A DNA stretch of 56,087 nt from positions 1 to 56,087 of the forward strand of contig JBFLZD010000020.1 of assembly GCA_040756435.1 (NCBI GenBank). Reading direction: 5' to 3'. Every line of letters begins with the position of its first letter. Position 1 is the stretch's first letter. The translations under genes and the position numbers were made by a program. The notes beneath the pieces are model-generated. The model was not told the DNA's origin, searched no databases, and was given only the letters and a program-made list of their open reading frames with translations. This stretch comes from Spirochaetota bacterium. GTDB taxonomy: Bacteria; Spirochaetota; UBA4802; UB4802. Below are positions 29,122-33,037 of the stretch, piece after piece.

Positions 29122-29835
29122 ATGAAAAAAAATACGTTAGGAAAAATACAGAAAAACACCCTTCACCAGCAGATAGTTTCCCTGCTGGCAAAACGCATTA
29201 TTAATCAGATGCAGCCTGGTGATAAACTGCCATCCGAACGCGATATTGCTGCTGATTTAGATGTCAACAGGGCAACTGTGCGTGAAGCATTGAAGAAACT
29301 GGAGACATTGGGGTTTATTGAAATTCGTCATGGTGAAGGCATCTTTATTAAAGATTACTTGACCAGCGGCAATCTGGAACTTTTCAAAATGCTGATATAC
29401 CTTAATGATACTATTCCGCTTTCAATACTGCAAAACCTTCTTGAGATCCGAAGAATTATTGTACCCCAGATGGCAGCCAATGCTTCAGAAAACATCACCA
29501 AAGAAGAGGTACAGCAATTTGAAGCGATAGTAACCGGTCAGGATACTATCCTGGAAAAAGACTTAGCTGTTCATCAACTCATTGCTAAAGCAAGCAGGAA
29601 TATGCTCTATATATTTATCTTAAATTTCTTCAACCAGATATTCAGGGATTTTGGCTATCTGTATTTTGAAAATCCTGATAACAAGAAACGCTCTGAAATA
29701 TTTCACCGTGAACTTCTGGAAGCCTTTAAAACTAAAAACAGCAAAAAGGCATATACTATAACGCACAGAGTACTGGAATACACTGAAAAAAGAATTTATG
29801 CATACTATTCGCAAATCTATAACAATAAGGGGTAA
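29122..29835 (+). CDS. GntR-family regulator, FadR/FCD group
   Basis: A 237-residue regulator. Residues 15-80 are a winged helix-turn-helix with the GntR signature (MQPGDKLPSERDIAADLDVNRATVREALKKLETLGFIEIRHGEGIFI); the C-terminal part is an FCD-type helical effector domain, with the metal-binding pattern D..H..H seen as KDLAVHQLIA, FHRELLEAF and THRVLEY. It lies five bases upstream of the glycerol-3-phosphate dehydrogenase gene. Its own promoter carries a matching palindrome, so it probably represses itself and glpD until an acid or phosphorylated effector appears. The effector is not known. Confidence 0.88.
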   Translation: MKKNTLGKIQKNTLHQQIVSLLAKRIINQMQPGDKLPSERDIAADLDVNRATVREALKKLETLGFIEIRHGEGIFIKDYLTSGNLELFKMLIYLNDTIPLSILQNLLEIRRIIVPQMAANASENITKEEVQQFEAIVTGQDTILEKDLAVHQLIAKASRNMLYIFILNFFNQIFRDFGYLYFENPDNKKRSEIFHRELLEAFKTKNSKKAYTITHRVLEYTEKRIYAYYSQIYNNKG

Positions 29836-29839
29836 TGCT

Positions 29840-31468
29840 ATGAAACGTTTTATTGAAGAAAATACTAAAGAACACTTTGATTGCATCATTGTAGGGGCAG
29901 GCATTACCGGTGCTGCTGTTGCCTATGAGGCTGCATCACGGGGCTTAAATGTTGCACTTCTTGAAAAAAACGATTTTGGATGGGCAACGTCTGCAGCAAC
30001 ATCAAAACTTATTCATGGGGGATTGCGATACCTGAATTATTTTGAATTTGGACTTGTTCGTGAATCGCTTCGTGAACGCAGGATACTTGAAAATATTGCG
30101 CCAAACCTTGTGTATCCTTTCCCATTCATGATACCCAATTATAACAGACTGGAAAACAACCGATGGGTTCTTAAAATTGGAATGATACTGTATGATATAC
30201 TATCCTATGATAAAGGCTTTACCTGGGATAAATCAAAAAATATTCCCATGCACTTTACTTTAAGCAAAGAAAAAGCCCTGCAGGAAGAACCAAACATCAG
30301 ACCTGAAGGTTTAACTGCTGCTACAGTATACTATGACTGCCAGAGTATATTTCCAGAACGCTTAACCTTAGCATTTATCAAATCTGCTGTACAGTATGGC
30401 GCTAAAGTTGCTAATTATGCTGAGGTTGTGAATTTTGTATACACCAATAATTTCATTACAGGTGTTATTGTTCATGACAGGCTTACTGGCAAGGAAGTAA
30501 CCATCAAAGGCAATCTCATCATTAACTGCGGCGGACCATGGGCTGATATTATCCTGAAAAAAGCAGAAAATGGAAACACAAAGCATCAGATACGGCGATC
30601 AGAAGGGATTCACATAATCACAAAACCAATGGTAAATAAATATGCTGTTGGACTTATGCCACGGAAAGGAAGGCATTTTTTCCTTATTCCCTGGAGAGGG
30701 TACTCTCTCATTGGAACCACTGATAAAGAGTATATTGGCAACCCCGATGAGTACACCGTCACAAAACAGAGTATACAGGAACTGCTTGATGATGTAAACA
30801 GTGCTTTTGGTGATGGCAACCTCTCATTTAAAGACATTACATTTGCCTATGGCGGATTGCGACCATTGGTTGAAGATCAGGTAGAAGGCACATACCAGTC
30901 ATCACGGCGATATGAAATTTACGATAATGCTGAAGAAGGTGTTAATGGCCTGATTACTGTTGAAGGTGGTAAATATACTACCAGCCGCAACCTTGCCGTT
31001 AACGTCATGAAGCTTGTAGAAAAGAAAATTCAGCGCAAACTTCCTCCTTCAGTTACCCATACACAATATTTAGCAGGATGCAAGATAACCGACCTTAATG
31101 CCTTTTTTAACAAGGTGTACACTTCATATTCTTCATTTAATAAAAACACCCTTACAGTCCTGGCAAAATATTACGGGTCAGAATTGGATGCATTAATGAA
31201 CATAGCTACTTCAAACAAGAAGTACAGGGAGATAGTTACTCATGATGGGGAAATTCTTGCAGAAGTTATCTATGCAATCCGTCATGAGATGGCACGCACT
31301 CTATCCGATATCGTTTTCAGGCGAACAGGTATCTGTACTGCGGGAAATCCTGGCAATGATATACTCAAATTGGTTGCTGAAACCGCAGCAAAAGAACTTA
31401 AATGGGATGAAAAAGAATTAAAACGAGAGCTTAAAAGCGTACAACAGCGGCTTCAACTTCCCAAATAA
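29840..31468 (+). CDS. glpD: FAD-dependent glycerol-3-phosphate dehydrogenase
   Basis: A 542-residue flavoenzyme that oxidises glycerol 3-phosphate to dihydroxyacetone phosphate at the inner membrane. Seen: the FAD-binding fingerprint DCIIVGAGITGAAVAYEAASRG near residues 13-34, the GlpD signature SAATSKLIHGGLRYL, the FAD/substrate block GGPWADII and the C-terminal helical domain (about 380-542) that supports dimer and membrane contact. Length suits both GlpD and the anaerobic GlpA; no glpB or glpC genes follow, so GlpD is the better name. Start at 29840 has AAGGGG; an earlier in-frame start overlaps the GntR gene. Confidence 0.9.
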   Translation: MKRFIEENTKEHFDCIIVGAGITGAAVAYEAASRGLNVALLEKNDFGWATSAATSKLIHGGLRYLNYFEFGLVRESLRERRILENIAPNLVYPFPFMIPNYNRLENNRWVLKIGMILYDILSYDKGFTWDKSKNIPMHFTLSKEKALQEEPNIRPEGLTAATVYYDCQSIFPERLTLAFIKSAVQYGAKVANYAEVVNFVYTNNFITGVIVHDRLTGKEVTIKGNLIINCGGPWADIILKKAENGNTKHQIRRSEGIHIITKPMVNKYAVGLMPRKGRHFFLIPWRGYSLIGTTDKEYIGNPDEYTVTKQSIQELLDDVNSAFGDGNLSFKDITFAYGGLRPLVEDQVEGTYQSSRRYEIYDNAEEGVNGLITVEGGKYTTSRNLAVNVMKLVEKKIQRKLPPSVTHTQYLAGCKITDLNAFFNKVYTSYSSFNKNTLTVLAKYYGSELDALMNIATSNKKYREIVTHDGEILAEVIYAIRHEMARTLSDIVFRRTGICTAGNPGNDILKLVAETAAKELKWDEKELKRELKSVQQRLQLPK

Positions 31469-31484
31469 TTATTGCATACAATAC

Positions 31485-31539
31485 CTATTGGTGCTATCTC
31501 TGGTAATACGTAAAAAATAATATGAGGTAGCACCAATGG
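31485..31539 (+). promoter_or_regulatory. Hairpin masking the GNAT ribosome binding site and start codon
   Basis: Sixteen bases at 31485-31500 pair with 31524-31539 (only G-U wobbles, no mismatch) around a 23-base loop. The right arm contains the ribosome binding site GAGG and the start codon ATG at 31536-31538. In RNA this would close translation of the following gene unless opened. Confidence 0.5.
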
Positions 31540-32015
31540 TTGAGATACACCCGCTTAACGATTTTCCCAGTTATGCGCCAGTGCTGGCATACTGGTCATA
31601 TAATCAATGGTACAGTAAAAGGGATATACCTTTCACTGCGCTGGTTCAGTCATATATAGAACGCGCCCGCAATACAACGGTACCCCTGGCATGGGTTGCC
31701 ATTAATGATAAAAAGCTTCCCGTAGGCATGGCTTCACTAAAAAATAATGACCTGTGGTCCCGTACTGACCTCAATCCGTGGCTTGCATCACTGTATATTG
31801 TCCCCGAATACCGCTTCCAGGGAATTGGCGACAGGATAATTAGAGCAATAATCGCTAAAACAAAAGAATTGGGATACAAAACACTATACCTTTTTGAAGG
31901 ACACAATGATACTGTCAATCTTATCCAGTATTATACCAAACGTGGATTTTCAATACTTGAAGAGGCTATTGATAACGATGGCAAACTGACCACAATTATG
32001 TATATTAATCTGTAA
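31536..32015 (+). CDS. GNAT-family N-acetyltransferase
   Basis: A 159-residue Gcn5-related acetyltransferase. The acetyl-CoA-binding motif A reads LYIVPEYRFQGIGDRIIRAII, with QGIGD as the pyrophosphate loop; motif B follows with YKTLYLFEGHNDTVNLIQYYTKRGFS. It would transfer an acetyl group to an amine on a small molecule or protein; the substrate cannot be told. The 5' end is striking: start codon and ribosome binding site lie inside a 16-base-pair hairpin, so expression is probably controlled at translation. It follows glpD after 67 bases on the same strand. Confidence 0.85.
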   Translation: MVEIHPLNDFPSYAPVLAYWSYNQWYSKRDIPFTALVQSYIERARNTTVPLAWVAINDKKLPVGMASLKNNDLWSRTDLNPWLASLYIVPEYRFQGIGDRIIRAIIAKTKELGYKTLYLFEGHNDTVNLIQYYTKRGFSILEEAIDNDGKLTTIMYINL

Positions 32016-32071: not shown

Positions 32072-33037
32072 ATGAGTAAAACAATTGTATTTTTAGATGC
32101 TTCAACGGTTGATTTTGGCGATATTGATTTTAGTCCCATTGCATCATTGGGAACATTCATTACCTATCCCGTCACAAAACCACATGAAACCATATCGCGA
32201 AGCAAGGATGCTGATATTATTATCACCAACAAGGTTGTCTTTTATGCTGATGAAATAGCTCAATTGCATAAGTGCTCACTTATAGCTGTTGCAGCAACTG
32301 GCTACAACACTATTGATATTAAGCAAGCAAAGAATAAAAACATCGCCGTTGCCAATGTTCCCGGTTATTCACGAGAAGCAGTTGCACAGCTCACCATGTG
32401 TTTTATACTGGCATTGGCAACGAATCTTGTTAAATACAACACTGCCACTCATGATGGAAGCTGGAGCCGTTCACCCATTTTTACTATGGGGAACTGGCCC
32501 ACCATGTGCATCAATGATAAAGTGTTAGGCATCATGGGCTACGGTGACATTGGGAAACGAGTGGGACAACTGGCACAAGCGTTTGGCATGAAGGTCATTG
32601 CGCTTAAACGGGAAAACTCATATACCGATACCGCAGTTGAACGATATCCCCTTGAAGAATTTTGTAAAATGGCTGATTTCATATCTATCCACATGCCGCT
32701 GAATGAATCCACACACCATATGGTCAATAAAGATTTTCTTGCTATGATGAAATCATCAGCGTATATAATAAATATGGCACGAGGCCCTATTGTTGATACA
32801 AAAGCGCTTGCGCATGCACTCCATAATAACGTGATTGCCGGTGCAGCTCTGGATGTGCTTGAACAGGAACCACCTGATATCAATGAACCTATTCTTTCAG
32901 CACCCAACTGTATTATAACCCCACATATTGGTTGGGCTTCTCGAGAAACCAGGCAGGCTCTTATTAATGAGATTGCTCAAAATATCAAAGCATTTTTGAA
33001 TGGCACAAAAAGAAATATAGTTAACGAAACCGTATAA
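32072..33037 (+). CDS. D-2-hydroxyacid dehydrogenase (glycerate dehydrogenase-like)
   Basis: A 321-residue NAD-dependent enzyme. Seen: the NAD-binding GYGDIGKRVGQLAQAFGMKV at about residues 151-170, the substrate-binding arginine in NMARGPIVDTKAL, the catalytic glutamate in EQEPP and the histidine in PHIGWASRETR. These make up the Arg-Glu-His catalytic set. Sequence closest in style to hydroxypyruvate/glycerate dehydrogenases, reversibly reducing hydroxypyruvate to glycerate, though lactate- or other 2-hydroxyacid dehydrogenases cannot be excluded. It precedes the 3-hydroxyacyl-CoA dehydrogenase gene by 11 bases, likely in one operon. Confidence 0.88.
   Translation: MSKTIVFLDASTVDFGDIDFSPIASLGTFITYPVTKPHETISRSKDADIIITNKVVFYADEIAQLHKCSLIAVAATGYNTIDIKQAKNKNIAVANVPGYSREAVAQLTMCFILALATNLVKYNTATHDGSWSRSPIFTMGNWPTMCINDKVLGIMGYGDIGKRVGQLAQAFGMKVIALKRENSYTDTAVERYPLEEFCKMADFISIHMPLNESTHHMVNKDFLAMMKSSAYIINMARGPIVDTKALAHALHNNVIAGAALDVLEQEPPDINEPILSAPNCIITPHIGWASRETRQALINEIAQNIKAFLNGTKRNIVNETV

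Follow-up and report, generated by a model that had tools for sequence, protein, structure and literature searches.

In bacteriophage T4, the lysozyme gene e (as well as soc, 49 and I-TevI) carries a hairpin over its ribosome binding site, and mapped late promoters exclude the left arm of that hairpin from the RNA, as reported in PMC3014915. A different arrangement is described in PMC8092293 for the mgtC-mgtQ-mgtB region of Salmonella, where an intergenic stem hides the ribosome binding site of the downstream operon gene, which is freed by translation of mgtQ. RNA thermometers such as ROSE and fourU keep both the Shine-Dalgarno (SD) sequence and the AUG paired. Classical translational coupling, as known from the gal and trp operons, concerns neighbouring genes within one mRNA (PMC5318159), and general background is offered by PMC10434192 and PMC5972666.

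The element described here is a 55-nt intergenic hairpin from an uncultured spirochaete lineage, which lies between a glpD-like gene and a gene for a GNAT acetyltransferase in a window (the whole stretch of DNA analysed) of 56,087 nucleotides. As in T4 gene e, long transcripts through this junction would contain both arms and hide the SD and the start codon, although late promoters have been mapped for the phage gene and the GNAT locus offers only a weak promoter-like match (PMC3014915). As with mgtQ, an intergenic stem covers a downstream ribosome binding site and a short frame is found between the genes; the action of mgtQ, however, has been shown experimentally and needs ribosome-destabilising acidic codons, whereas the candidate frame at our locus, recognised from the sequence alone, starts with UUG and has neither an SD nor a conserved peptide (PMC8092293). 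The pairing of both SD and AUG recalls the RNA thermometers, from which the GNAT stem departs in being long and nearly perfect, with no opening predicted in the physiological range. With classical coupling the locus shares two neighbouring genes on one presumed mRNA, but no stop-start overlap exists at the glpD-GNAT junction (PMC5318159). We consider it probable that the element is a selected, RNA-level intercistronic hairpin which sequesters a ribosome binding site in the mRNA of a gene row made up of glpD, GNAT and a D-2-hydroxyacid dehydrogenase gene. It would add a conserved and genus-wide case to start-site sequestration, which is a known kind of control; none of the titles found in the literature describes the element, and nothing was found under UBA2205.

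The hairpin and its gene row

The glpD-like gene, for an FAD-dependent glycerol-3-phosphate dehydrogenase (29798 to 31468, forward strand; PF01266 and PF16901), has a possible alternative start at the ATG at 29840, and its best NCBIfam model, PRK12266, reaches 330 bits, below the cut-off of 360. Directly upstream of it lies a FadR/GntR-like regulator gene (29122 to 29835), which the NCBIfam FadR models match far under their cut-offs. The GNAT gene (31536 to 32015, forward strand; 159 aa, PF00583), whose start residue is supported by its homologues, is followed by a gene for a D-2-hydroxyacid dehydrogenase (32072 to 33037, forward strand) whose own SD-like sequence, AAAGGA, is not part of the hairpin; also downstream of GNAT is a gene like those for 3-hydroxyacyl-CoA dehydrogenases. 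The gap between glpD and GNAT, of about 65 to 72 nt, is mostly taken up by the hairpin, at which there is no T tract. Since no terminator-like site was detected on the forward strand between 29000 and 33200, a common transcript for the row is likely.

The left, anti-SD arm of the hairpin (31485 to 31500, with the core GGTGCTATCT), delimited by folding and species comparison, pairs with the right arm (31524 to 31539, obtained from folding) across a 23-nt loop of non-conserved sequence (31501 to 31523), all of them on the forward strand. The helix is an unbroken run of 16 pairs that includes two G-U pairs. The sequence-only reading of this DNA had described a 16-bp stem with a 23-base loop, and folding returned exactly those arms; the folding energy calculation that it had proposed gave a minimum of -23.7 kcal/mol, against a mean of -7.07 for shuffled sequences (z = -8.2, with 0 of 200 shuffles equally stable). 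The same hairpin is also predicted in a context of 201 nt. The right arm carries the GNAT SD, which from the sequence is GAGG (31524 to 31527, forward strand; GGGA and AGGA in two relatives) and begins 12 nt ahead of the GNAT ATG (31536 to 31538), so that both lie wholly within this arm. The modelled hairpin is likely to act by sequestering the GNAT SD and start codon.

Stems of at least 16 bp, with a loop of up to 35 nt and no more than two G-U pairs, occur once in the whole 56 kb window, whereas 40 shuffles of the window gave a mean of 0.05 and a maximum of 1. Moreover, the uninterrupted stem over the SD is of 16 bp at GNAT and of at most 12 bp at the other 280 sites in a sample of 281 SD-start sites, taken from 456 kb (the window together with 20 stretches of its genome) as mechanically picked ORFs of at least 120 codons, not all of which are true genes. 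No Rfam family matched between 31000 and 32100 at E values up to 1. In a search for additional copies in six genomes, where 150 of 536 to 2516 candidate stretches were scored per genome, the best match outside the five loci compared below and their reverse strands had an E value of 0.24, and the hairpin looks like a single locus in each genome.

In glpD-initiated transcripts, the left arm would pair with the GNAT start region from the SD across the spacer to the AUG, and translation of this gene would be strongly held down as a result, with the D-2-hydroxyacid dehydrogenase escaping through its ribosome site outside the stem. We infer the polycistronic transcript, the low translation of GNAT and the mode of its relief alike. 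Relief might come from a ribosome that re-initiates at a UUG after the glpD stop and moves through the left arm, in the manner of mgtQ, or from an RNA whose 5' end lies within the left arm or beyond it, in the manner of T4 gene e, two options that we judge about equally likely; as a third option, there would be no specific opener and the hairpin would be a fixed brake. If one of the first two were true, a single 55-nt element would tie the middle gene of a metabolic operon to its upstream neighbour or uncouple it from that neighbour; otherwise, it would be an ordinary translational brake.

Conservation within the genus

Five species of one genus of uncultured Spirochaetota (G000 to G004) were compared, all of them with the GNAT gene, and the named contigs matched by the GNAT protein are MAGs. 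In every one of the five, the hairpin is present at the same glpD-GNAT junction, and GNAT is preceded by glpD and followed by the same two dehydrogenase genes, as judged by eye from the translations. The placement of the GNAT ribosome binding site and start codon in a stable stem, as claimed by the sequence-only reading, is thus borne out both by folding and by these congeneric species, where the pairing is kept. Because it has been kept in every related species checked, the hairpin is probably a real translation control.

Folded alone, the hairpins of G000, G001, G003, G004 and G002 reach -21.2, -25.1, -19.9, -18.7 and -17.6 kcal/mol, with z values of -6.1, -6.8, -3.9, -3.2 and -4.6, respectively. 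Over a wider segment (-75 to +12), z is -4.5 in G000, -6.0 in G001, -3.5 in G003 and -2.7 in G002, and only -1.63 in G004, where 11 of 200 shuffles make the value non-significant. On the alignment of the five species (A1), 91.1% of 79 cells are paired, a percentage reached by 19 of 500 shuffles. All 50 sequence-by-pair cells of the ten-pair core are paired, and the seven unpaired cells are confined to the innermost pair and the five outer ones, the outer stem being broken in G003 and G004. Five of the core pairs are G-U in some species. RNAalifold independently recovers the same helix, and register slides of 1 to 3 columns lower the paired fraction to 30-61%. Conservation with compensatory changes among relatives, which had been put forward as a check on the stem, was found as far as the kept pairing goes; double changes with pairing kept occur at two pairs (columns 29/72 and 37/64), but both are in G002, and at least two such changes also arise in 35 of 500 shuffles.

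None of the 10 positions of the left-arm core differs in any of the six comparisons among G000, G001, G003 and G004, and in five of those six the four-fold sites of the two neighbouring genes differ by 44-61% (between G000 and G001, by 26% in GNAT and 21% in glpD). Against G002, the core has 3 of 10 differences, with the pairing kept. The loop differs at 4 to 14 of its 23 to 24 places, and the stretch ahead of the stem diverges too. The SD and the AUG constrain the right arm in any case, so its conservation partly needs no hairpin, and the purine-for-purine changes in the SD could likewise be explained without one through the same SD constraint. The comparison covers few sequences, five of a single genus, and its covariation statistics are modest.

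Opening of the stem and other readings

It is a reasonable possibility, although short of probable, that the hairpin has no specific opener and serves as a fixed brake or as an mRNA stabiliser, so that the GNAT level would be constantly low or the end of the glpD mRNA would be protected or processed. A loop without conservation, the lack of any Rfam match and the single copy agree with this possibility, as does a left arm for which no alternative partner has been kept across all five species. Plain mRNA stability, on the other hand, leaves unexplained why the stem spans exactly the SD and the AUG.

Given the ribosome footprint, a ribosome terminating at the glpD stop codon (31466 to 31468) would be expected to stay clear of the stem, which lies 16 nt further on. 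The earlier remark that the upstream gene ends before the stem fits this spacing, but the conclusion drawn from it, that coupling alone would not open the stem, is unsafe because a UUG frame crosses the left arm in all five species. This candidate relay frame (31472 to 31513, forward strand; UUG to UAA, 13 codons) begins 3 nt past the glpD stop, crosses the left arm and ends in the loop. Ribosomes terminating at glpD might re-initiate at its UUG, read 12 to 19 codons through the left arm, terminate in the loop or shortly ahead of the GNAT start and so open the stem, with GNAT translated in step with glpD, an idea that we put forward only tentatively. Consistent with it, the frame spans the whole left arm in 5/5 species, the TTG is invariant within an otherwise variable stretch, the spacing between stop and UUG is 3 nt in four species and 7 nt in G004, and the frame ends ahead of the GNAT ATG at -23 (G000), -22 (G001), -26 (G003), -6 (G004) and -12 (G002). 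A precedent is mgtQ, situated between mgtC and mgtB, through which a sequestered ribosome binding site is released, as PMC8092293 describes. However, the UUG lacks an upstream SD, the encoded peptide is not conserved, and the frame is not constant, since it differs in relation to the left arm in G002 and in relation to glpD in G004. Short open frames are, moreover, common by chance in such DNA, other near-start frames cross the arm too, and the same TTG also takes part in the promoter pattern considered below. That such an SD-less relay would be the sole way in which the GNAT hairpin opens, with acetyltransferase synthesis proportional to glpD translation, seems doubtful to us.

Rather doubtful is also the idea of an insulator against read-through, in which a promoter overlapping the left arm would give a short and translated GNAT mRNA without this arm, and long glpD transcripts would fold and stay silent. 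The putative promoter is a weak match, TTGCAT-N17-TATCTC with TGC ahead of the second hexamer (31472 to 31500, forward strand), which overlaps the left arm; a pattern TTGnnn-N16/17-TATnnn, again with TGC before the second hexamer, is found at the same place in the five species. The start predicted from it, about 28 to 30 nt upstream of the ATG, would fall past the left arm, and the T4 lysozyme gene e provides the precedent (PMC3014915). Nevertheless, the -10-like hexamers (TATCTC, TATCTG and TATTCA) lack the final T, and with E. coli scoring weights the sites rank only among the best 0.9-3.0% of coding positions. The stem alone already conserves the TGCTAT part, and a separate promoter scan did not report the pattern.

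An inverted operator acting at the DNA level, to which for example the FadR-like GntR protein encoded just ahead of glpD (29122 to 29835) would bind, is very unlikely. Neither arm is itself palindromic, and no second copy of the element was found in the five genomes at E values below 0.1. Furthermore, the one-sided changes in the core all involve G-U, keeping the pairing in the RNA and breaking the symmetry of the DNA, which favours RNA pairing over a symmetric DNA site.

As for temperature, the models for all five species keep either the entire SD or three quarters of it paired between 10 and 60 °C; in G004 and G002 its mean unpaired probability is about 0.25, flat up to 55 °C, which we read as one of the four SD bases being unpaired. 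In the model for the window's sequence, the SD bases are on average unpaired with a probability of 0.001 at 37 °C, which rises to 0.026 at 65 °C and 0.083 at 75 °C, and in the relatives SD opening hardly shifts below 60 °C. An RNA thermometer, suggested earlier for a stem that holds both the SD and the AUG, is scarcely credible, since the hairpin, closed in silico to at least 65 °C, seems too stable for a temperature sensor, and no Rfam thermometer family matched at E values up to 1 between 31000 and 32100.

Rejected partners and more distant relatives

Two alternative partners for the left arm within the row were considered and set aside, namely glpD codons at about -240 (GAGATGGCACG, about -15 to -16.5 kcal/mol) and GNAT codons at about +36. 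Each of them pairs in G000, G001, G003 and G004 and not in G002, in which the left arm has no comparable alternative partner; both are located within conserved protein motifs, and for this reason no switch is claimed. A candidate partner in trans is offered by a glutamine synthetase-like gene of G000, in which 15 nt (L005, 1501 to 1515) are perfectly complementary to the left arm; this stretch has mismatches in the other four species and is taken as chance. From its motifs, we take this gene to encode a type III glutamine synthetase. Leader control of the GlpP type was also rejected, the antiterminator GlpP (PF04309) being over its family cut-off in none of the five genomes.

Matches to the GNAT protein were obtained in 38 genomes, eight of which fall outside the comparison. 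The hairpin was not seen in any of the 25 GNAT homologues that are more distant (L011 to L035), with no z below -2.2 in segments that are slightly off where a match begins at least one codon past the true start, and it is therefore regarded as a genus-level feature. In G005, of the same family and another genus, a small hairpin can form over the SD, within what is expected by chance (z = -0.77, 44 of 200 shuffles), and a glpD-like gene also precedes the GNAT gene. The glpD-like upstream gene of the genus and of G005 is unlike that found elsewhere: outside the family, a gene for an FAD-linked oxidase (PF01565 and PF02913) often lies upstream of the GNAT homologue, as in the three cases tested (L012, L023 and L025), and similar upstream C-termini were seen by eye in L011, L013, L014 and L017. 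Judging from these neighbourhoods, the link of GNAT to FAD enzymes may be a functional one.
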